Source: an uncultured Flavobacteriales bacterium
GTDB lineage: Bacteria > Bacteroidota > Bacteroidia > Flavobacteriales_G > Salibacteraceae
DNA length: 64,000 bases
Direction: 5' to 3'
Assembly: GCA_937899835.1 (NCBI GenBank)
Contig: CALCCE010000022.1
Coordinates: forward strand, 1-64,000
Part shown: in pieces, positions 22,655-64,000 of the stretch
Position numbering within the stretch: the first letter of the stretch is position 1
Layout of the letters: every line of letters begins with the position of its first letter
Made by a program: the position numbers and the translations under genes
The notes under the pieces: generated by a model
Database searches by the model: none
Seen by the model: only the letters and a program-made list of their open reading frames with translations
What the model was told of the DNA's origin: nothing

Positions 22655-23257
22655 TCAATTCAAATGTTGTGCTCCAACGATGGCGGAGGTGAGTTCACGA
22701 ATGGCGCGCACTTTCACGGTTCCAGTGCTTTTTAAGCGGTCGCGAATCAAGCGCAGGTGCGCTAGTACAATTGGAATTTCTTCGGGCAACACTTCTTCCA
22801 ACAATTCCCTCACCCTGCGCGAAAATGTAGGTGATTTGCCGTTGGTGGATACTGCGATCTTAATATCGCCTTTGGTGACCACTGACCCCAAATAAAAATC
22901 GCTCAGGTGAGGCACATCGGCCACATGCACCAGCAACTTGCGGTATTTCGCTTTCTCCCAAATTCGGTGGTCGAGTGCTGCATCTTCGGTAGCGACAATG
23001 ACGACATCTTTTTCGTTGAGGTCCAGGATGGAAAAAGGCCGTCGGTGTAGAATCACCCCTGGATGAGCATCGGCCAGCTGGCCTATTTCTTCAGTAATGG
23101 AAGGTGCCACCAGTTCTACACGGGCGTTGGGGCTACTTTTGAGCAAAAACCGAAGTTTTTCGCTGCCCTTAGCTCCACCTCCTATGATGAGTAGGCGCAT
23201 TCGGTCCAGCCGTAAAAACACGGGATACAGTTCATTTTGATCGGATTGCATATTCAA
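22655..23257 (-). CDS. Precorrin-2 dehydrogenase / sirohydrochlorin ferrochelatase (siroheme synthesis)
   Basis: 200 aa equivalent to the N-terminal half of CysG or to Met8p: it oxidises precorrin-2 with NAD and can insert iron to give siroheme, the cofactor of assimilatory sulfite reductase. The Rossmann motif IIGGGAKGSEKLRFLLKS is at 24-42, VVIVATEDAALDHRIWEKA at about 86-104, and DFYLGSVVTKGDIKIAVSTNGKSPTFSRRVRE at 121-152, the last matching the family signature FxxPaxvxrgdlxIaISTnGxSPxlAr. It lies downstream of the sulfate-assimilation and methionine operon, past a terminator hairpin. Neither sulfite reductase nor the uroporphyrinogen methyltransferase is in the window. Confidence 0.92.
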   Translation of the reverse strand: MNMQSDQNELYPVFLRLDRMRLLIIGGGAKGSEKLRFLLKSSPNARVELVAPSITEEIGQLADAHPGVILHRRPFSILDLNEKDVVIVATEDAALDHRIWEKAKYRKLLVHVADVPHLSDFYLGSVVTKGDIKIAVSTNGKSPTFSRRVRELLEEVLPEEIPIVLAHLRLIRDRLKSTGTVKVRAIRELTSAIVGAQHLN

Positions 23258-23520: not shown

Positions 23521-24720
23521 TTACAAGGTAACGGGTTCAGGTTTCTGGGTAGCCAACAGGGCTTGTTGCAGGTCGGCCCAAATATCATCGACGTGTTCCA
23601 AACCAACGGAAACACGAATAAGACCAGGAAGTATTCCCGCAGCCAAACGTTCAGCTTCGGTCAACTTGCTGTGGGTAGTGGAGGCGGGATGGGTAACAAT
23701 GGTACGGCTATCGCCCAAGTTGGCAGAAAGGCTGCAAAACCGGAGGGCATCCAGAAATTTTCGACCTTGGACGATCCCTCCTTCCAAAGAAAAGGAAAGC
23801 ACTCCCCCACCCGCAATCATTTGCCTTTTGGCAATCGCGTATTGGGGATGTGAGGGTAAAAACGGATACCGCACCCAATCCACTCCGGGGGTTTGTTCCA
23901 GGCGACTGGCCACTGCCAAGGCATTGGCCGAATGACGGTCCATCCGAACTGCAAGGGTTTCCAGGCTTTTGCTCAATACCCAGGCATTGAAAGGGGAAAG
24001 GGCCGGACCACTGTGACGGGCAAATCCTTGCACCTGCTCCATCAGGTCTTGTCGGCCTACAATTAAACCACCCAACACCCTGCCCTGACCGTCCATAAAC
24101 TTGGTAGCACTGTGCACTACCAAATCGGCTCCAAAGCGAATGGGCTGTTGCAAATAGGGTGTGGCAAAGCAATTGTCAACCACCAATATCAATCCATGCT
24201 GCCGGGCAAAAGCTCCCAGCCATTCCATGTCAAGCAGTTCTACACCCGGATTAGACGGCGTTTCGACCAACAGCATCCGGGTGTTATTTTGCACCAGGTC
24301 GTGCCACGATTCAGGAGCTTCGATCGGGCCATAGCTGTGATGTATGTTCCACTTGGGTAAAATGTTGGTGAGCAATTGATGCGTAGATCCAAAAACCGAT
24401 CGACAGGCCAAAACATGATCGCCTGCTTTTAGCAGTGCGGCCAATGTGGTGAAAACGGCCGCCATTCCGGTAGCAGTGGCAAAACCATCTTCGGCTCCTT
24501 CCATCGCGCACACCTTTTCAATCAGCTCAGAGGTGTTGGGGTTGGAATACCGACTGTAGATGTTTCCCGGCTCTTCGTCGGCAAAGCGGGCCCGCATCTG
24601 TTCTGCATCTTCGAACACAAAACTCGATGTGAGGTAAAGGGGCACGGAGTGCTCTCCTTCCGAACTGCGTTCTCGTTGGTGCCGCACAGCTCCGGTTTCA
24701 AATTGCCAGTTTTCAGACAT
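23521..24720 (-). CDS. O-acylhomoserine sulfhydrylase / PLP-dependent Cys-Met metabolism enzyme
   Basis: 399 aa when started at 24720 (MSENWQFETGAVRHQ); an upstream ATG at 24756 gives 411 aa. Fold-type I PLP enzyme joining sulfide to O-acylhomoserine to make homocysteine, by family and context. Motifs counted from 24720: YLTSSFVFEDAEQMRARFA near 30-50, YSRYSNPNTSELIEKVCAMEGAEDGFATATGM at about 55-85 with the family's Tyr-Arg-Asn pattern, VDNCFATPYLQQP near 175, and the PLP lysine in HSATKFMDGQGRVLGG near 200. It overlaps the OsmC gene by 8 bp. The sequence is of the MetZ type; acetyl versus succinyl donor cannot be decided, but the adjacent metX supports direct sulfhydrylation. Confidence 0.92.
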   Translation of the reverse strand: MSENWQFETGAVRHQRERSSEGEHSVPLYLTSSFVFEDAEQMRARFADEEPGNIYSRYSNPNTSELIEKVCAMEGAEDGFATATGMAAVFTTLAALLKAGDHVLACRSVFGSTHQLLTNILPKWNIHHSYGPIEAPESWHDLVQNNTRMLLVETPSNPGVELLDMEWLGAFARQHGLILVVDNCFATPYLQQPIRFGADLVVHSATKFMDGQGRVLGGLIVGRQDLMEQVQGFARHSGPALSPFNAWVLSKSLETLAVRMDRHSANALAVASRLEQTPGVDWVRYPFLPSHPQYAIAKRQMIAGGGVLSFSLEGGIVQGRKFLDALRFCSLSANLGDSRTIVTHPASTTHSKLTEAERLAAGILPGLIRVSVGLEHVDDIWADLQQALLATQKPEPVTL

Positions 24721-25138
24721 GCTTGGTATGGATCGTAAAATCGGTTTTAAGTTCAATTCCTGGATGAAGCGACAGGGCTACTGAGCAGTATTTCTCAATC
24801 GCCAGATCAATGGCGCGTTTTACCTTTTCAGCTTCCAAATCACCCCAAAGGTGGTAGTGTACCCGAATGTGCTTGAATTCCCTGGCTGGCGTATCCTGGT
24901 TGCGCTCCCCTTCCAACTCCGCACGAAAATCGAGCACCTCCTGTTTTTGTTTTTTGAGGATGAGGCCGATATCAATGGCGCTGCACCCAGCCAAAGCAGC
25001 CATCAAAGTCTCCATGGGCCGAAACCCGAAACCCTCTCCGCCAATATCAGGGGAAGCATCCAGGCGCAATTCCTGTCCATGTTCGTTGTGTACCTCGAAC
25101 TGAAAAGGCGCCTTTTTGCGGTGCAATTCAATTTTCAT
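24713..25138 (-). CDS. OsmC family protein
   Basis: 141 aa OsmC/Ohr-fold protein. It carries SPDIGGEGFGFRPMETLMAALAGCSAIDIGLILKKQ (about 29-64) with the active-site Cys in GCSA. The second peroxidatic Cys is at the expected place in YCSVALSLHP (about 116-125). Family members reduce organic hydroperoxides or act in sulfur-related stress. It is embedded in the sulfate-assimilation operon, overlapping cysN by 4 bp upstream and the sulfhydrylase gene by 8 bp downstream. That context suggests a thiol or sulfide-handling role, though this is inference. Confidence 0.88.
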   Translation of the reverse strand: MKIELHRKKAPFQFEVHNEHGQELRLDASPDIGGEGFGFRPMETLMAALAGCSAIDIGLILKKQKQEVLDFRAELEGERNQDTPAREFKHIRVHYHLWGDLEAEKVKRAIDLAIEKYCSVALSLHPGIELKTDFTIHTKHV

Positions 25139-26388
25139 CGTTCGGCAATCATTCCGGCAGCGACCGTATTGTTGCTGTGTTCGTCAATGAGCACGAAAGC
25201 TCCGTTGGCCCGGTTTTGTCCGTAGTCGTCGTAAAACAAGGGCTTGGCGCTGCGCAAAACAACTCGTCCAATCTCGTTGAGGGCCAACTCTCCGGCTTCT
25301 TCATCTTTTTCCAAAGTGGTGGGGTCTACTTTATAAGCAAACTGGCGCACCTTCACAGGGGTGCGGCTGGCAGCATGCTGCAACAAGTAGCGCCCAGCAG
25401 GATTCAGCGCTTCATCTCCCATCCAGCAGAGGTCGGCTTGAATGTCCTGACTAATCACCGGCAGGTTGTTCGGCTTCACCAACATATCGCCTCGGGAAAT
25501 GTCAATGTCATCTTCCAACCGAATGGTTACCGAACGGCCGTGGTCGGCCTGCTCCAATGTTCCATCGAGTACATCAATCGATTGAATCCTACTGGTTTTT
25601 CGAGAAGGAAGTACCATCACTTCGTCTCCTTTAGAAAAACTTCCTCCGGCAACCCGACCACTGTATCCACGGTAGTCCCGGTGCGCTTCACTTTGTGGCC
25701 GAATGACCCACTGCACCGGAAACCGCGCTTCGGTGAGGTTGGCGGTAACTGGAATGGGTACCGTTTCTAAATGCTCCAGCAAGGTTTTGCCTTCGTACCA
25801 GGCCAGTTTTTCAGAGGCGTATACTACATTGTCGCCACCCAGGGCATTCACCGGAATGAAGCTAATTTCCTGTCCCTTGTGACTCAAATTGCCTGCAAAC
25901 TTTCTAAACTCGGTGGTAATTTCATCGAAGCGCTCTTGCGCATAATCCACCAGGTCCATTTTATTGACCGCCACCACGATTTGTGGAATTTTCAACAGCC
26001 ATGCAATGTAATAGTGCCGAAAGGTTTGCTCTACCACTCCATGGCGGGCATCGATGAGAATGATCGCCAAATTGGTATTGCTGGCTCCGGTCACCATGTT
26101 GCGGGTATACTCCACATGGCCCGGAGTATCGGTAATGATGAATTTCCGTCGGGGAGTATTGAAATAAATGTGGGCCACGTCAATGGTAATGCCCTGTTCG
26201 CGCTCCGCTTTCAGGCCATCCGTAAGCAGCGAAAGGTCGAGGTAGTCGTGTCCCCGGCGTTTGCTGGTGCGCTCCACGGCTTCCAATTGATCGGTGCGCA
26301 AAGCTTTTGTATCGTACATCAACCGTCCGATGAGGGTACTCTTGCCGTCGTCGACACTTCCGGCGGTTGAAAATCGCAAAACATCCAT
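25135..26388 (-). CDS. cysN: Sulfate adenylyltransferase GTPase subunit 1
   Basis: 417 aa GTP-binding subunit of ATP sulfurylase, which activates sulfate to APS together with CysD. The GTPase motifs are in order: GSVDDGKSTLIGRL (about 10-23), EREQGITIDVAH (about 63-74), DTPGHVEY (about 87-94) and NKMDL (about 144-148), followed by EF-Tu-like beta-barrel domains (SGRVAGGSFSKGDEVMVLPS near 240). It ends without the APS-kinase domain found in CysNC fusions, so this organism probably reduces APS directly, in agreement with the CysH neighbour. Separated from cysD by 35 bp, overlapping the OsmC gene by 4 bp. Confidence 0.95.
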   Translation of the reverse strand: MDVLRFSTAGSVDDGKSTLIGRLMYDTKALRTDQLEAVERTSKRRGHDYLDLSLLTDGLKAEREQGITIDVAHIYFNTPRRKFIITDTPGHVEYTRNMVTGASNTNLAIILIDARHGVVEQTFRHYYIAWLLKIPQIVVAVNKMDLVDYAQERFDEITTEFRKFAGNLSHKGQEISFIPVNALGGDNVVYASEKLAWYEGKTLLEHLETVPIPVTANLTEARFPVQWVIRPQSEAHRDYRGYSGRVAGGSFSKGDEVMVLPSRKTSRIQSIDVLDGTLEQADHGRSVTIRLEDDIDISRGDMLVKPNNLPVISQDIQADLCWMGDEALNPAGRYLLQHAASRTPVKVRQFAYKVDPTTLEKDEEAGELALNEIGRVVLRSAKPLFYDDYGQNRANGAFVLIDEHSNNTVAAGMIAER

Positions 26389-26423: not shown

Positions 26424-27323
26424 TTAGAAGTATCCGGCCTCTTTGCGGTTTTCCATGGCCGTTTCCGAACGCTTATCGTCGATGCGTGCGCCCCTTTCGG
26501 TGATGGTGGAGGCACTGATCTCTGCGATAATCTGGTCGATTTGATCGGCCTCCGATTCTACCGCGGCCGTGCAGGTCATGTCGCCCACGGTGCGAAAACG
26601 CACCGAGCGTTCCACAATCGGTTCGCCTTCTTCAATGTTGAGAAATTCGGAGTGGGGCCATAGGAAACCATCGCGCATCACCAATTTTCGGCGGTGTGCA
26701 TAGTAAATTGAAGGAATTTCCAGGTTCTCTTTTTTGATGTAGTTCCAAACGTCCAACTCGGTCCAATTGCTGATGGGAAACACCCGCACATTTTCACCGA
26801 TTTGAATCCGGCCGTTGTAAATGTTCCAAAGCTCCGGGCGTTGCCGCTTGGCATCCCATTGCCCAAATTCATCGCGCACACTAAAAACCCGTTCTTTGGC
26901 CCGTGCTTTTTCTTCATCTCGTCGGGCGCCACCAATGCAAGCGTCTAACTTCAGTTCTTCAATGGCATCGAGCAAGGTGACCGTTTGCAAAGCATTGCGA
27001 CTGGCGTACTTTCCCGATTCTTCTTTCACCTTTTTTTGATCGATAGAAGTTTGTACGTAACGCACCTCCAAACGCTCCCCAATGCGGGCTACCAAACGGT
27101 CGCGAAAATCAATGGTTTCGGGAAAATTGTGTCCGGTATCCACATGCAACAAGATGAAAGGAAAACGCCCGGGGCGAAATGCCTTTTCGGCAAGCCGTAC
27201 CAAAGTGATGGAATCTTTCCCACCTGAAAACAGCAGTGCCGGTCGTTCAAATTGTGCCGCCACCTCACGCATAATGTAGATGGCTTCGTCTTCCAGTTCT
27301 TGTAAATATTTAAGGTCTGTCAT
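26424..27323 (-). CDS. cysD: Sulfate adenylyltransferase subunit 2
   Basis: 299 aa catalytic subunit of ATP sulfurylase. PP-loop SGGKDS at about 34-39, LHVDTGHNFPETIDFRDRL at 62-80, GARRDEEKARAKERVFSVRDEFGQWDAKRQRPELWNIYNG around 135-175, FPISNWTELDVWNYIKKENLEIPSIYYAHRR at about 182-212. Length and motifs are typical. It overlaps cysH by 4 bp upstream and is 35 bp from cysN downstream, so it belongs to the operon driven from the SAM-riboswitch promoter. Confidence 0.96.
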   Translation of the reverse strand: MTDLKYLQELEDEAIYIMREVAAQFERPALLFSGGKDSITLVRLAEKAFRPGRFPFILLHVDTGHNFPETIDFRDRLVARIGERLEVRYVQTSIDQKKVKEESGKYASRNALQTVTLLDAIEELKLDACIGGARRDEEKARAKERVFSVRDEFGQWDAKRQRPELWNIYNGRIQIGENVRVFPISNWTELDVWNYIKKENLEIPSIYYAHRRKLVMRDGFLWPHSEFLNIEEGEPIVERSVRFRTVGDMTCTAAVESEADQIDQIIAEISASTITERGARIDDKRSETAMENRKEAGYF

Positions 27324-28063
27324 AGCTTGTTAGTGTGTTGAGTTTGGGGCAAATTGGTGGCTTGAGCCGTATGCAAGCCGCACTCTTTGTGCGATTGCTC
27401 CCACCACCAACGGCCCGCGCGCAAATCTTCGCCTGGCGCAATGGCACGGGTGCAGGGAGCACAGCCGATGCTTATAAATCCTTTTTTGTGCAGTGGGTTG
27501 CAGGGAATATTTTCCCGGTCGATGAAATCGAGCATGTGCTCGTAGGTCCAATCGATAAGTGGGTTGTATTTGAACAGTGAAAAGCCGGCATCCCATTGCA
27601 CTTTGTTGAGTCCTTGCCGAGCATCCGATTGGGCGGCCCTGAGGCCAGTCACCCAGATGGTGGTGTCTTTCAGCGCCCGCTTCAAAGGCTTGACCTTGCG
27701 CAAAAAGCAGCATTCTTTTCGGTTTTCTACCGAATCGTAAAAGCTGTAAGGTCCTTTCTCGGTGAGTAAAATCTCGATATCTTCCGATCCAGGAAAATAG
27801 GTTTCGATCGGCTGTTTGTATTTCATCCGGGTGCGCTGGAACAAGTCGTACGTTTCGGCAAACAAGCGCCCGGTATCCAATGTAAAAACCCTGATGGGCA
27901 GTTTTTGCCGAAAAATGAAATGGGTAATTACCTGATCCTCCTGCCCAAAGCTGGTAGAAAAAGCCACCTTGCCTTGGTAATTATACGCCAACCACCGTAG
28001 GCCTTCCTCCGGAGGAAGACCTTCTAACTCACTTTGCAAATAGGCCAATTGGTCGTCGTTCAT
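27320..28063 (-). CDS. cysH: Adenylyl-sulfate (APS) reductase, assimilatory
   Basis: 247 aa PAPS/APS reductase family enzyme reducing activated sulfate to sulfite with thioredoxin or glutathione. It has VAFSTSFGQEDQVI near 33-46, FTLDTGRLFAETYDL at about 60-74, ENRKECCFLRKVKPLKRAL near 112-130 and GCAPCTRAIAPGEDLRAGRWWWE at 202-224. The CC...CxxC pattern (ECC and GCAPC) marks the [4Fe-4S] subgroup that uses APS rather than PAPS. The family's C-terminal catalytic Cys is present in KECGLH. It overlaps the DUF2061 gene and cysD by 4 bp each. Confidence 0.95.
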   Translation of the reverse strand: MNDDQLAYLQSELEGLPPEEGLRWLAYNYQGKVAFSTSFGQEDQVITHFIFRQKLPIRVFTLDTGRLFAETYDLFQRTRMKYKQPIETYFPGSEDIEILLTEKGPYSFYDSVENRKECCFLRKVKPLKRALKDTTIWVTGLRAAQSDARQGLNKVQWDAGFSLFKYNPLIDWTYEHMLDFIDRENIPCNPLHKKGFISIGCAPCTRAIAPGEDLRAGRWWWEQSHKECGLHTAQATNLPQTQHTNKL

Positions 28064-28353
28064 ACATGATCATTTTTGGTTCTCTTCCCCCACCGCACCT
28101 GCACCCAGGCTCGCTCATGGATATAGTACAAGACCATTTTGGTCACCAACTCTACCGATCCAATAGAAAAGGCAATGGTAAACTCGTTGGTCAACACCCA
28201 GGAAATGGCAATTGTATCGAGGGTGCCAACCGCTCGCCACGTAAAGGCTTTTACCAAACTGCGTATGGGTGTATCCGGTCCGTTGCTGCTTTTACGCAGC
28301 CGTTGCCTGACTTTTACCTTGGTTCGGTTGTCAATGAGTTGATCGATGATCAT
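28060..28353 (-). CDS. DUF2061 small membrane protein
   Basis: 97 aa predicted DUF2061 protein. It begins with a basic, soluble stretch, then RSLVKAFTWRAVGTLDTIAISWVLTN (about 32-57) and FSIGSVELVTKMVLYYIHERAWVQVRWG (about 63-90), both typical of the family and each with one membrane helix. The conserved HERAW is at the end of helix two. The gene lies inside the sulfate-assimilation operon with 4-bp overlaps on both sides. DUF2061 genes often sit near cysteine biosynthesis in this phylum, so a role in sulfate or sulfite transport is possible but unproven. Confidence 0.9.
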   Translation of the reverse strand: MIIDQLIDNRTKVKVRQRLRKSSNGPDTPIRSLVKAFTWRAVGTLDTIAISWVLTNEFTIAFSIGSVELVTKMVLYYIHERAWVQVRWGKRTKNDHV

Positions 28354-29660
28354 ACCACGTTGTTTTTTAAGACAGGAATCAATTCAGCAACTTCTGACTG
28401 GTGGGCTTGTAGCACTCCCGAGATGGGGTCTTTTCGAAGTAAGTTGCCATTCAAAGCCACAAATACCTTTTGTTCCTGTAGTAGTTTTTGGTGGGCTACC
28501 AGTTGTTTTAGTCCAATGATGCCCTGCACCGTATCGATGCTGCGGTGTTCGACTTGTTCCCAGGTCAGGTGTCGGTGTATGGTTTCGTTAGCTCGCAGGT
28601 AAACCGGCAAATACAAATCGTTGGTAATGCCCTGCAGCAAAGTGGTTTTAAGCTTTTCATACCCGTAGCTAAAACTTCGGGCGGCCGCTTTCACATCGGC
28701 CCAAACTGCGGAAGCGGTAGGATGGCTGCCCGCCCCTTTGCCGCGATAGAATTGTGGCCCGGAAAAAGAACCCTCTATTACTACTGCATTGAATTCATTT
28801 TCTACCCCGCGCAACAATTGATGAGCGTCTAATAATTGTGGCATCACAAACAACGCCAGCTCAGTACCAACCCGCTCGGCAGTTGCCACCAAACGCAATT
28901 GTTTGTCTTGCGAACGCGCAAATTCCAGATCAGCATTGTTCAACCCGTGGATGCCTGCACTGAGCACCTGCTCGGGCTTCACCAAGACACCAAAGGCATG
29001 TGCCGCCAGCAAGCACAGCTTGTAGCGGGCATCGAATCCTCCCACATCCAAAGTTGGATCGGTTTCCGCAAAGCCCAGTTGCTGTGCCGATTGCAAGGCC
29101 TCACTATAAGCAACGCCTTCAGAAAATACTTTGGAAAGAATGTAATTGGAGCTCCCATTGAGGATGCCGCTGAGCCGAATCAAGGGTTCATCAGCGTAAT
29201 AGTCTTCGATGGTGCGAATCACCGGAATGCTGCCGCAAACGGCCGCTTCGTAGAGCAGTGTTCCACCAAAATCATGTTGCAGGCTGATGAGTTCCGGCAA
29301 GTTCTCAGCCAACATCTTTTTGTTGGCAGAAACCACCTTTCGACCCGCAATTAAGGCTTCGCGTACAATCCGATAAGCCTCGGCCGCATCATCGATCACC
29401 TCTACCACCAATTGAATAGTGGGGTCGTTCAAAATCTGAGTTTTGTCCAGGGTGAAACGGTCGGCCGTTAGGTCGCGGGACTTCTTGCCATCCTTAATTC
29501 CGATGCGGACCACCTCCGCGCCAGCGTGTTTCAACTGATCAATGAGGTGGTACAGACCTTGCCCAACACATCCATAGCCAAACAGGCCGATCTTATAGGG
29601 TTCATCTGAAGCAAGGTCCTCAGGTTTGGGCACTTGCGGTTTTGTGGAATCGGTTTTCAT
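28350..29660 (-). CDS. hom: Homoserine dehydrogenase
   Basis: 436 aa NAD(P)-dependent homoserine dehydrogenase reducing aspartate semialdehyde to homoserine, the step before methionine and threonine. The Rossmann motif KIGLFGYGCVGQGLYHLIDQL is at about 23-43, VVSANKKMLAENLPELIS near 108-125, LLYEAAVCGSIPVIRTIEDY at about 133-152 and LSGILNGSSNYILSKV near 158-173. The catalytic Lys/Asp and NGxxNYI region are present. The C-terminal 100 residues do not match a classical ACT domain to my eye. The gene is not fused to aspartokinase, and overlaps metX and the DUF2061 gene by 4 bp. Confidence 0.94.
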   Translation of the reverse strand: MKTDSTKPQVPKPEDLASDEPYKIGLFGYGCVGQGLYHLIDQLKHAGAEVVRIGIKDGKKSRDLTADRFTLDKTQILNDPTIQLVVEVIDDAAEAYRIVREALIAGRKVVSANKKMLAENLPELISLQHDFGGTLLYEAAVCGSIPVIRTIEDYYADEPLIRLSGILNGSSNYILSKVFSEGVAYSEALQSAQQLGFAETDPTLDVGGFDARYKLCLLAAHAFGVLVKPEQVLSAGIHGLNNADLEFARSQDKQLRLVATAERVGTELALFVMPQLLDAHQLLRGVENEFNAVVIEGSFSGPQFYRGKGAGSHPTASAVWADVKAAARSFSYGYEKLKTTLLQGITNDLYLPVYLRANETIHRHLTWEQVEHRSIDTVQGIIGLKQLVAHQKLLQEQKVFVALNGNLLRKDPISGVLQAHQSEVAELIPVLKNNVV

Positions 29661-30691
29661 GATGCTATTTCTAAATACTCAGTTTGGGGTAAGAATTGGG
29701 TCAAAGCCCTTTCAATTTGCTTGTATTCCAACAAGAAGCCATCGTGTCCATACTCCGATTGCAAGACTTGAAGAGTAGCGTTGGGCAAGTGCTTGGCCAG
29801 GTATTCTTGTTCTACCAAAGGAAAGAGCACATCGGATTGCAAGCCCATCACCAGGCAGTTGGCTTGTACCTCTCCCAGGGCCTCAGCAATGCTTTGTCGC
29901 CCCCGGCCTACGTTGTGGCTGTCCATGGCTTTGGACAAAAGGTGGTAACTATGGGCATTGAAACGATCAGCCAGTTTGTCCCCTTGGTGGTGCAGGTAGG
30001 AGCTCACCCGAAAATCGTCCAGTTGTTCGTGGTTGGGTTGCGCCTGTCGCTCGGCATAAGCGCTATAGCTGCGGTAGCTCAACATGGCGATGGCGCGTGC
30101 AGCGCGCAATCCTTGTTTGCCCCCGTCGAGCGATTGGTTGTAGAAAGTACGGTCGGCCCGAATGGCCATCCGCTGCGATTCGTTGAAGGCAATGCCCCAA
30201 GGTGAATGTTGGGCGTTGGTGGCCAATAAACTTAGGTTTTCAATCAAATTGGGTTGAAGAATGGCCCATTCAAGGGCTTGTTGCCCACCCAAGGACCCTC
30301 CGATCAGCAAATGGATCCGCTCAATGCCCAGGTGCTGGCGCAAGCGTTCGTGCACCTGTACCATGTCGCGCACCGTTACCGCAGGAAACAAGTGACACCA
30401 GGGTTGGCGCATGCCGGGATAAGTGGTTTCAGGACCGGTAGTGCCGTAACAAGACCCCAGCACATTGGCACAAATCAATCGGTAGCGCTTGGGATCGAAA
30501 TACCGATCGCCTCCTACCAAACCAGGCCACCATTCCGAAGGGTCTGCATTGGCCGTCAAGGCATGACAAAACCACACTACAGGAGCATCCTTGGGTCCTT
30601 CGTCGGTAAAGGAAATTTCCAGCTCACCAAGGGGAGTACCTGATTCAAGAATCAGTGTTTCGGAAGATTTATGGAGTTTTTTGGAGAACAT
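29657..30691 (-). CDS. metX: Homoserine O-acetyltransferase (MetX family)
   Basis: 344 aa alpha/beta-hydrolase acyltransferase that activates homoserine for sulfhydrylation. Motifs: VVWFCHALTANADPSEWWPGL near 39-59, CYGTTGPETTYPGMRQPWCHLFPAVTVRDMV (about 82-112), the nucleophile loop LIGGSLGGQQALEWAI (about 127-142), and the catalytic His in SEYGHDGFLLE near 311-321. It is the first structural gene of the operon, 124 nt after the poly-Cys leader ORF and downstream of the SAM-I riboswitch. Acetyl versus succinyl specificity cannot be settled from sequence alone, but MetX-type motifs usually indicate acetyl. Confidence 0.93.
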   Translation of the reverse strand: MFSKKLHKSSETLILESGTPLGELEISFTDEGPKDAPVVWFCHALTANADPSEWWPGLVGGDRYFDPKRYRLICANVLGSCYGTTGPETTYPGMRQPWCHLFPAVTVRDMVQVHERLRQHLGIERIHLLIGGSLGGQQALEWAILQPNLIENLSLLATNAQHSPWGIAFNESQRMAIRADRTFYNQSLDGGKQGLRAARAIAMLSYRSYSAYAERQAQPNHEQLDDFRVSSYLHHQGDKLADRFNAHSYHLLSKAMDSHNVGRGRQSIAEALGEVQANCLVMGLQSDVLFPLVEQEYLAKHLPNATLQVLQSEYGHDGFLLEYKQIERALTQFLPQTEYLEIAS

Positions 30692-30793
30692 CTTAATAAT
30701 TTGAAAACAGGATGAGGTATAGGAGTTTCACAGTACAAAGCACAAATAGTAGCCTTGTGAAACCGGGCTTGCCTCGGCATCAAATCAGAAAAA

Positions 30794-30808
30794 AGTCGGA
30801 ATCGGACT
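30794..30808 (-). terminator. Weak terminator-like hairpin after the poly-Cys leader
   Basis: Minus strand AGTC-cgattcc-GACT followed by six T, starting 8 nt after the leader stop codon. The stem is only 4-5 bp, so alone it would be weak. It is placed where an attenuator would be expected. Confidence 0.3.
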
Positions 30809-30810
30809 CA

Positions 30811-30860
30811 ATGCATCAGCAGCAGTTGCAGCAACAGCAACAGCAACAACAGAGATGCAT
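30811..30860 (-). repeat. Inverted repeat whose loop holds the Cys codons
   Basis: ATGCATC (minus strand 30860-30854) and GATGCAT (30817-30811) are perfectly complementary over 7 bp. The whole run of Cys codons lies in the loop. Ribosomes translating or stalling there would open the stem. Confidence 0.5.
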
Positions 30861-30953
30861 CATAGAAGAAATAGCGGAAAGAGGGTTGCGCAGGAAAGAA
30901 CCTATGGAGGTATTTCCAGAGAGATTGGAGATGGAGTGGAGCGCGGTAGTCAT
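30816..30953 (-). CDS. Poly-cysteine leader peptide of the sulfur/methionine operon
   Basis: A 45-aa ORF starting at the ATG at 30953, just 3' of the riboswitch, and ending in HLCCCCCCCCNCC: ten Cys in the last eleven residues, then TGA. An in-frame GTG at 31004 lies inside the riboswitch aptamer and is unlikely. An internal ATGATG (from 30863) would give a 15-aa peptide MMHLCCCCCCCCNCC. Cys codons are mixed TGT and TGC, so the run is not a single-codon slip. The peptide precedes cysteine and methionine genes, as in classical attenuation leaders, and poly-Cys upstream ORFs are known to sense cysteine in mycobacteria. Function here is inferred: charged tRNA-Cys shortage would stall ribosomes and change folding downstream. 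Confidence 0.65.
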   Translation of the reverse strand: MTTALHSISNLSGNTSIGSFLRNPLSAISSMMHLCCCCCCCCNCC

Positions 30954-30968
30954 GTTAGTTAGCTTCAA

Positions 30969-31070
30969 TTTATCTTCTCCCTTATCGGGATCAGGAATTG
31001 GCACCTTTCTAAACGTATTAGGGTTGCCAGAGGGTCATCGAGCCTGGTCTCTCGCCTCGTTCTTAATAAA
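30969..31070 (-). ncRNA. SAM-I (S-box) riboswitch
   Basis: On the minus strand the 5' P1 arm UUUAU AAG pattern is followed by the core GAGACCAGGCUCGAUGACCC and CUGGCAACC, then GGUGCCAAUUCC, GAUCCCGAUAAG and the 3' end GAGAAGAUAAA, whose AUAAA pairs with the 5' UUUAU. These are the conserved kink-turn, GGCAACC and GGUGCCA elements of the S-box aptamer that binds S-adenosylmethionine and normally lowers expression. It lies 30 nt after the predicted start of transcription and ahead of the poly-Cys ORF and metX. Confidence 0.93.
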
Positions 31071-31098
31071 CAATGATTACTCTCAGCGAATAACAACG

Positions 31099-31131
31099 CA
31101 AAGGTAGACCCGAATCGTTCAGTTTTCCAAA
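31099..31131 (-). promoter_or_regulatory. Promoter of the SAM-riboswitch sulfur/methionine operon
   Basis: On the minus strand TTTG (31131-31128), a 21-nt spacer, then TACCTTTG (31106-31099): a full match to the Bacteroidota TTTG-N(19-21)-TAnnTTTG consensus. It is 29 nt upstream of the riboswitch. Confidence 0.8.
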
Positions 31132-62828: not shown

Positions 62829-64000
62829 ATGCGTTACCTCTACTCCTTTCTGTTTGCCCTTTCGTTTTTGATGTGTTTCACCGAAAACCTTCGGGCACAA
62901 GGTGATACCACTATCGTAGAAGTATTGAATTACAATGCGTCCACACGCGATACCATGGCGGTGTTTCCCAACGTACAAGGAGAGACCTACGAAAAGATCA
63001 TCATGCTCTACAACATGCGCTGCACCGATGGTTTGGTTTCTCCACCGGTAGCCGGCCAAACCAACCTGGGTTGTGGCGAATGGGACTACAGTTGCAACAC
63101 GTATATCCACGATCCCGATCGGATAGACTCACTGGCACGCACCACCAATTCACACACCATTACCGCCTTCACCGGAACGACTTACGACTACGTTACTGTT
63201 CCAACGTATACCTATTACCAACTGGACAAAAAGGACGTGCAGGCCACGGTAGTTTCTGAAACCAACCACGCTGTCGGTACCGGAAGTACGGCACTCAGCC
63301 ATGTGGTGCCTACCAACATTGCGGCCACCAAATCGCACTACCTTTTCACCGCAGCCGAATTGCAGTCCAGCGGTTTGGGCGCGGGCACGATTGATGCGCT
63401 CACCCTCAACGTACTTACCGGAGGCACCGCTAATTTTTTCCGCATCGGCTTGAAAGCTACTACTAAAACGGTGCTCGATCCGGCTGACGTGGATCAAAGT
63501 GGATTTACCGAAGTGTATTTCAACACCGCTCCCATGGCAACGGGGGTCAACCGCTTTCAGTTTTACACCCCCTTTACCTGGGACGGCACCTCCAACGTCA
63601 TTGTAGAATTCTCCAACACCAACAGTTCGGCCAGTGGTGGCACTTCGGCTACCATCGAAGGAGGTTCGGTGAGCCCGGATTATGGCCTCTACGCCAACAA
63701 TTCCAACTACATCATTGCCAATGCGGGTCAGGTTATTGACATGCCCGTGGCGCCTCTTTCGGGCATTTCTAACGAGGTCACCATTTCTTTTTGGTCCTAT
63801 GGCGATGAAGATCAATTGCCCCGCAACACCACCATTTTCGAAGGCAGAAACAACAGCAACCAACGCCAGGTGAACGTTCACCTGCCTTGGAACAATTCAC
63901 AAATCTATTGGGACGCCGGCAACGATGGCAGTGGCTACGACCGCATCAACACCACGGCGGGCAACAACGATTTCTCGGGCCGCTGGAACCATTGGGCCTT
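62829..64000 (+). CDS. Large exported PNGase F-like / LamG protein (truncated by the window end)
   Basis: At least 390 codons and open at the right end. Signal peptide 1-24 (MRYLYSFLFALSF ... NLRA-QGD). Near residues 55-95 NMRCTDGLVSPP and GCGEWDYSCNTYIHDP resemble the start of peptide-N-glycosidase F-type proteins; later VTISFWSYGDEDQLPRNTTIF and the following PWNNSQIYWDAGNDGSGY (about 315-360) fit a LamG-like jelly roll. Such proteins in Bacteroidota are usually long, secreted through the type IX system with a C-terminal sorting domain that would lie beyond the window. The substrate is unknown. Confidence 0.8.
   Translation, partial: MRYLYSFLFALSFLMCFTENLRAQGDTTIVEVLNYNASTRDTMAVFPNVQGETYEKIIMLYNMRCTDGLVSPPVAGQTNLGCGEWDYSCNTYIHDPDRIDSLARTTNSHTITAFTGTTYDYVTVPTYTYYQLDKKDVQATVVSETNHAVGTGSTALSHVVPTNIAATKSHYLFTAAELQSSGLGAGTIDALTLNVLTGGTANFFRIGLKATTKTVLDPADVDQSGFTEVYFNTAPMATGVNRFQFYTPFTWDGTSNVIVEFSNTNSSASGGTSATIEGGSVSPDYGLYANNSNYIIANAGQVIDMPVAPLSGISNEVTISFWSYGDEDQLPRNTTIFEGRNNSNQRQVNVHLPWNNSQIYWDAGNDGSGYDRINTTAGNNDFSGRWNHWA

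Follow-up and report, generated by a model that had tools for sequence, protein, structure and literature searches.

A SAM-I aptamer followed by a cysteine-tailed leader peptide: a probable two-sensor leader before sulfur-assimilation genes in Bacteroidota

A single leader RNA located before the sulfur-assimilation genes of many Bacteroidota probably reads two supplies, that of S-adenosylmethionine (SAM) and that of cysteine. The leader would consist of two sensors in series: a SAM-I aptamer and, next to it, a leader peptide with a Cys (and Met) tail encoded within a switchable hairpin. In the absence of expression data and with the caveats set out below, there are good grounds for regarding a cysteine attenuator as the expression platform of this SAM-I riboswitch, with SAM probably gating translation of the leader. 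The aptamer, the open reading frame (ORF), its Cys/Met tail and the alternative pairings are established from sequence and comparison; termination, ribosome stalling and the effect of SAM are predicted only.

The proposed mechanism would operate as follows. With no ribosome on the Cys codons, or after a ribosome has passed and gone, the hairpin and a terminator would form and transcription would end before metX or metY. When charged tRNA-Cys is short, a ribosome would stall on the Cys codons and cover the 5′ arm of the hairpin; the freed 3′ arm could then pair downstream as an antiterminator, allowing the operon to be transcribed. High SAM is inferred to close P1, 4–14 nt before the leader ATG, which would block leader translation and hence favour termination. 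By inference, full expression of the operon would require low SAM together with a shortage of Cys (or Met).

The leader was identified in a window of 64,000 nucleotides, the whole stretch of DNA that was analysed, and its elements lie on the minus strand. Transcription is expected to start from a promoter at 31099–31131, made up of TTTG (31131–31128), a 21-nt spacer and TACCTTTG (31106–31099), in agreement with the Bacteroidota consensus TTTG / TAnnTTTG, of which the TAnnTTTG element has been described (PMC9723704). The aptamer (30967–31072) is the only Rfam match within the window: it scores 64.2 bits against RF00162, above the curated gathering score of 44.4, and the 3′ strand of its P1 helix, GATAAATT, ends at 30967. 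On this score it is a SAM-I (S-box) aptamer, and the binding of SAM is inferred. In SAM-I riboswitches the expression platform is usually a terminator or the gene's own ribosome site, which is blocked. That usual, not defining, platform directly 3′ of the aptamer is absent here, and a leader ORF begins in its place, which leaves the assignment of the aptamer unaffected. The ORF comprises 45 codons (MTTALHSISNLSGNTSIGSFLRNPLSAISSMMHLCCCCCCCCNCC) and runs from an ATG at 30953, 13 nt 3′ of the aptamer, to a TGA at 30816; at its end, HLCCCCCCCCNCC / MMHLCCCCCCCCNCC, ten of the final eleven codons encode Cys, by a mixture of TGT and TGC.

The gene that follows is metX, encoding homoserine O-acetyltransferase (29657–30691, minus strand as are all genes of the operon, with the ATG at 30691; TIGR01392, 1.5e-96, below the NCBI equivalog cut-off). 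Next come hom, for homoserine dehydrogenase (28350–29660; NF004976 above cut-off, PF00742), a gene for a DUF2061 protein (28060–28353; PF09834, 1.8e-20), cysH, for PAPS/APS reductase (27320–28063; NF002537 above cut-off), cysD (26424–27323; TIGR02039 above cut-off) and cysN (25135–26388; TIGR02034 above cut-off). The series continues with an OsmC-family protein (24713–25138; NF008009, 7e-21, below cut-off) and a PLP-dependent sulfhydrylase closest to O-succinyl/O-acetylhomoserine sulfhydrylases (23521–24756; NF006003, 2e-155, just below cut-off). A gene similar to the siroheme synthase N-terminal part, cysG (22655–23257; TIGR01470 above cut-off), is the probable end of the operon.

Three RNA pairings are predicted from the end of the ORF onwards, before metX. 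The Cys hairpin (30810–30861; −19.3 kcal/mol by RNAfold) joins GATGCATC (30861–30854) to GATGCATT (30817–30810) and encloses all Cys codons of the ORF. Its inner helix is GTTGC/GCAAC, and the lone Asn codon (AAC) that interrupts the Cys run is explained by the requirement of this helix, GUUGC:GCAAC in the RNA, for its bases. A terminator-like hairpin recognized from sequence and folding, GAGTC/GACTT followed by TTTT, occupies 30789–30809 and has a weak stem (−2.7 kcal/mol). The antiterminator (30777–30814) pairs GCATTGAGTC (30814–30805) with GATTTGATGC (30786–30777) through 10 pairs at −10 kcal/mol and overlaps both the second arm of the Cys hairpin and the 5′ arm of the terminator. The initial annotation had named a consensus promoter, a SAM-I aptamer, the 45-codon ORF with its ten Cys, a stem with all Cys codons in its loop, a terminator-like hairpin with a T run and the gene order from metX to the sulfhydrylase; all are recovered here, the terminator stem being weak and the cysG-like gene an addition. 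It had overlooked the inner helix, the 10-pair antiterminator and the Met codons in tail and hairpin.

In the ribosome-free minimum-energy fold of the window leader, the Cys hairpin coexists with the GAGUC/GACUU hairpin adjoining UUUU. With Cys codon 1 or 4 masked by a ribosome footprint, the minimum-energy fold turns to GCAUUGAGUC:GAUUUGAUGC and the terminator disappears; with the footprint at Cys codon 8, the terminator is restored. The loss of terminator pairing under the mask has a P value of ∼0.045 against shuffles. The antiterminator of the window taken alone is not stronger than in shuffled sequence (z −0.04), and a general test of the ribosome-mask switch exceeded its null only modestly. 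The modelled folding of the window thus changes in the predicted direction, subject to the weakness of the terminator stem.

The distribution of this architecture was surveyed with a covariance model of the aptamer subtype (R1), run on 395 Bacteroidia genomes and then on single families and one genus; an ORF was accepted if its ATG fell within 45 nt of the aptamer and it encoded at least 3 Cys in 12 residues. The family of the window belongs to Bacteroidia, and its own genus is represented by a single genome in the sample. The same order, namely SAM-I aptamer, ATG about 7 nt on, short ORF with a Cys (and Met) end and target gene, is present in 194 leaders from 14 GTDB families of Bacteroidia. 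The sequences are related and hence not independent of one another, which makes families a better measure than leaders. The initial annotation had proposed as its own test a search for Cys runs after SAM-I aptamers in related genomes, and these are found, with varying codons. Its choice of metX as the target needs correction: metX leaders do occur, together with less frequent cysH or OsmC leaders, and the commonest target is instead metY (O-acetylhomoserine sulfhydrylase).

The run of the window is a near-repeat of TGT/TGC and might on that account be dismissed as a chance low-complexity TGY repeat confined to one genome. Against this stand the 194 leaders in 14 families and the frequency of Cys in them: among metY/metX leaders with this aptamer subtype, 89/115 (77%) have at least 3 Cys in 12 residues, compared with 1.6% of shuffles, and 36/115 have at least 6, a level reached by 0/2300 shuffles. 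A chance repeat is refuted by the survey and can practically be struck from consideration.

The Cys ORF is present in 77/80 leaders of one genus (g98), which includes Mucilaginibacter: the link was drawn from the leader peptide of Mucilaginibacter endophyticus, identical to that of L205. A first survey of 60 relatives had already yielded four metY/metX aptamers of other genera or families with a Cys/Met-tailed short ORF (G007, G038, G042, G054), and no Cys-tailed ORF was found at SAM-I aptamers before metH in the same 60 relatives. The genome of the window itself harbours a second SAM-I aptamer, before metH, without a Cys-tailed ORF. A pattern search of named genomes gave at least 80 readable loci; among the matches listed, 22 passed the ORF filter and approximately 20 looked genuine by eye. 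Cys leaders among the matches listed include those of Mucilaginibacter endophyticus, several Hymenobacter (H. qilianensis and H. roseosalivarius among them), Sphingobacterium thalpophilum (a metagenome-assembled genome), Saprospiraceae and Cyclobacteriaceae. For Bacillota loci with a similar aptamer, there was no Cys leader among the matches listed.

Several loci depart from the common arrangement. In L044 (G007:C4:63388–63488 minus, 63704–63806 plus) two divergent SAM-I aptamers lie ∼215 nt apart in one intergenic region, one with a Cys leader before metY and the other without one before metH, so that nature offers the two kinds for comparison at a single locus. In L049, L063, L064, L084, L139 and L157 an aptamer of the leader subtype stands before a sulfhydrylase/cystathionine gamma-synthase-like gene without a Cys ORF, and therefore the aptamer subtype extends beyond the leader architecture. 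In three Bacteroidales loci (L324, L314, L383) among the matches listed, the gene behind an aptamer of this subtype is aspartokinase-like, and no Cys ORF passed the filter.

As for the peptide, the body of the ORF is free to vary across leaders, even within Bacteroidia, and only its end is conserved. Cys is the last residue in 84% of leaders and stands fourth from the end in 78%; MC or CM occurs in 162/194 tails, Met being part of both tail and hairpin. Leaders of the Mucilaginibacter-type genus have TGT as their final codon in 48 cases, TGC in 28 and another in 3, and the corresponding figures for the penultimate codon are 27, 48 and 4. As both TGT and TGC are used, the amino acid, Cys, is what is kept. 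A conserved short ORF with codons of the pathway's own amino acid, one of the features expected of a ribosome-mediated attenuator, is accordingly present. In 18/194 leaders, e.g. L091, L105 and L115, the hexamer CGAATG stands directly 5′ of the Cys run (∼2 expected from shuffles). In genus g57 of family f42 (L060, L133, L165, L166, L174, L175, L176, L177, L181) the ORF is kept and the Cys run lost: these ORFs end Arg-Met-Arg-stop, and CGAATGCGnTAGTCGTC is nearly invariant, with possible pairing to GACGACC downstream. The g57 leaders may have either a different sensor or a lost one; like the leaders of this aptamer subtype that have no Cys ORF, they count against the proposed two-sensor reading.

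The UGY repeats could be imagined as merely an RNA stem of the SAM-I platform, with the ORF untranslated. The Met and Asn codons of the tail do render the hairpin self-complementary, from which it follows that RNA structure does constrain the tail. Yet a reading frame is present at a near-fixed distance of its ATG from the aptamer, with a stop directly after the run; TGT and TGC exchange freely, a change to another amino acid being rare; and a reading of Cys also suits the metY, metX and cysH targets. An untranslated stem was rejected on codon exchange and the Cys-run survey, and is very improbable. A cysteine-sensing leader peptide acting through the position of the ribosome is, from the sequences, strongly supported, the stalling itself being inferred.

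Evidence for a switch at the level of RNA structure is clearest in families f35 and f43. There, a U-tract hairpin has the Met codons before the Cys run as its 5′ arm and the stretch right after the stop as its 3′ arm, with the Cys codons between. The arms differ among leaders yet pair: AUGAUGC:GCAUCAU-UCUUUUUU, GAUGUGU:AUACAUC and AAAUGAUGAUG:CAUCAUCAUUU, as well as GUAGUG:CAUUAC in a variant with Val-Val for Met-Met. The 3′ arm has an alternative partner downstream, as in AUCAUUCUU:AAGAGUGAU, UACAUCUUU:AAAGAUGUA and AUCGUUCA:UGAACGAU. The f35/f43 pairings were read from sequence without a formal count, which in f35 could not be made by alignment column because two subgroups are offset by one base. 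Some f35 leaders, e.g. L282, L291 and L297, possess an extra small hairpin in the ORF just 5′ of the terminator arm, whose arms differ but remain complementary (CTGT/ACAG, TACTGAA/TTCAGTA, TCCG/CGGA).

For the full set of 194 leaders, pairing between the post-stop stretch and positions +24 to 72 exceeds that of shuffled sequence, with a mean z of −1.04 ± 0.10 (s.e.), controls giving −0.03 and +0.09; complementarity between tail and post-stop stretch is weak over all leaders (mean z −0.43 vs −0.03). An antiterminator model of Mucilaginibacter type, built from 12 leaders and applied to 68 other loci, matched 56; in Mucilaginibacter the antiterminator joins ACACGU to ACGUGU. Among these 56, both-sided changes occur in 9/12 pairs, in 46 cells, and 0/500 shuffles score as high. 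Covariation, for which the initial annotation had proposed a test in the stems, is found in the antiterminator. The rows were aligned by fitting them to the model, and a few of them match on the opposite strand; with one row per locus, the outer helix is 94.9% paired, compared with a shuffled maximum of 93.9%. RNAalifold on a MAFFT alignment of 79 leaders returned no structure because the arms were misaligned, and the covariance model was used instead.

A generic terminator scan gave 70 weak terminators against 60 expected from shuffles and 52 strong ones against 30. By group, terminator evidence is clear in f35/f43, weak in the window and not clear in the Sphingobacteriaceae-type leaders (f42), for which no clear terminator appears in the ribosome-free fold; the antiterminator covaries. 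One could imagine that the same cysteine leader has no intrinsic terminator and relies on Rho-dependent termination or on translational coupling, a mechanism suggested for the mycobacterial cys leaders: many leaders, above all in f42, are without a convincing hairpin and U-tract, and the post-stop stretch is pyrimidine-rich. This alternative is considered unlikely, in view of the f35/f43 hairpins that adjoin U-tracts and of the matching antiterminators that change on both sides. Intrinsic rather than Rho-dependent termination is reasonably well supported overall, with greater confidence in f35/f43 and less in f42.

On the SAM side, the evidence is chiefly one of position. The distance from aptamer to leader ATG has a median of 7 nt (5–95%: 4–14), compared with a median of 69.5 nt from aptamer to metH ATG, and the 3′ strand of P1 is 95% A/U in the leader type versus 62% in the other SAM-I aptamers of the sample. 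The plain-type SAM-I sisters in f35 (L303, L304, L301) carry an intrinsic terminator directly after the aptamer. Because the leader ATG follows the SAM element so closely, a serial arrangement of the two sensors is probable; the tight spacing, the A/U-rich P1 and the terminators of the plain-type sisters make leader translation the most likely target of the aptamer. When P1 was forced in the folding, the leader start stayed open (0.62 to 0.59 unpaired), and without such support SAM gating rests on position alone. An intrinsically weaker P1 in the leader type was also considered and set aside, as folding does not support it (0.34 vs 0.17).

The two inputs might instead be independent, with the riboswitch acting directly on transcription and the leader peptide serving as a separate override. 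Such OR logic is physiologically attractive, for a shortage of Cys could, by inference, open the operon despite high SAM, and the sister SAM-I leaders of the same family rely on a terminator immediately 3′ of their aptamer. In the Cys leaders, however, the 3′ strand of P1 is ∼100 nt away from the terminator, from which the whole ORF separates it; P1 and the terminator showed no conserved pairing, and the spacing to the leader ATG is tight. Independence of the inputs is a doubtful reading, although AND or OR logic remains inferred and is not settled by these data. Gating of leader translation by SAM, whose effect is predicted only, is preferred by a narrow measure. The dual control by SAM and cysteine suggested by the initial annotation is supported in its anatomy, which is conserved as a unit and absent before metH, and unproven by experiment.

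Riboswitches and amino-acid-sensing leaders are each well known; in the open-access literature, subscription papers being outside the search, no description was found of a cysteine leader placed after a SAM riboswitch, nor of a conserved composite with a near-fixed distance from aptamer to ATG. As proposed, the composite is a natural gate with two inputs for sulfur assimilation that can be tested; it bears on the extent of transcription–translation coupling in Bacteroidota and raises the possibility that leader peptides are under riboswitch control elsewhere. Among its hosts, Mucilaginibacter, Hymenobacter and Sphingobacterium are available in culture. Whether it constitutes a widespread natural logic gate and a general Bacteroidota platform, in which a metabolite riboswitch governs the translation of a leader peptide, the ribosome on that peptide reads charged tRNA-Cys, and one RNA integrates SAM and cysteine without protein regulators, is an evenly balanced matter.

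Comparison with known systems sets the composite in context. Like other members of RF00162, it has an aptamer before methionine and sulfur genes, but a leader ORF and an attenuator occupy the place of the platform. It shares with the trp, his and thr attenuators of Proteobacteria a short ORF with codons of the pathway's amino acid, alternative hairpins and a U-tract; it differs from them in that the Cys codons lie inside the hairpin itself and an aptamer directly precedes the start codon. Magnesium is the ligand of the mgtA leader. In Salmonella this leader, with mgtL, combines a riboswitch-type RNA with a Pro-rich ORF at whose Pro codons stalling affects termination (as described in PMC5021804); it differs in its Pro codons, in Rho-dependent termination and in its unrelated target and phylum. 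The B12 riboswitch and uORF before ppe2 of Mycobacterium tuberculosis, where the first target is uORF translation and the gene depends on the uORF, is not described as an amino-acid sensor and has no such attenuator hairpins (PMC11260477). In Rhodobacterales, uORFC-8-2 before cysS has tandem Cys codons in a stem, a U-run and predicted tRNA-Cys sensing, but only two Cys codons, no riboswitch and another target gene (PMC8632094). Within Bacteroidota, leader-peptide attenuation has been suspected in Flavobacterium (PMC9723704). Finally, in the mycobacterial cys operons a poly-Cys leader likewise precedes sulfur genes and carries its Cys run close to the stop codon of a short ORF, with no riboswitch and no conserved hairpins or terminator (PMC1262725); these leaders belong to a different phylum, and the likeness is one of working, with no common descent claimed.
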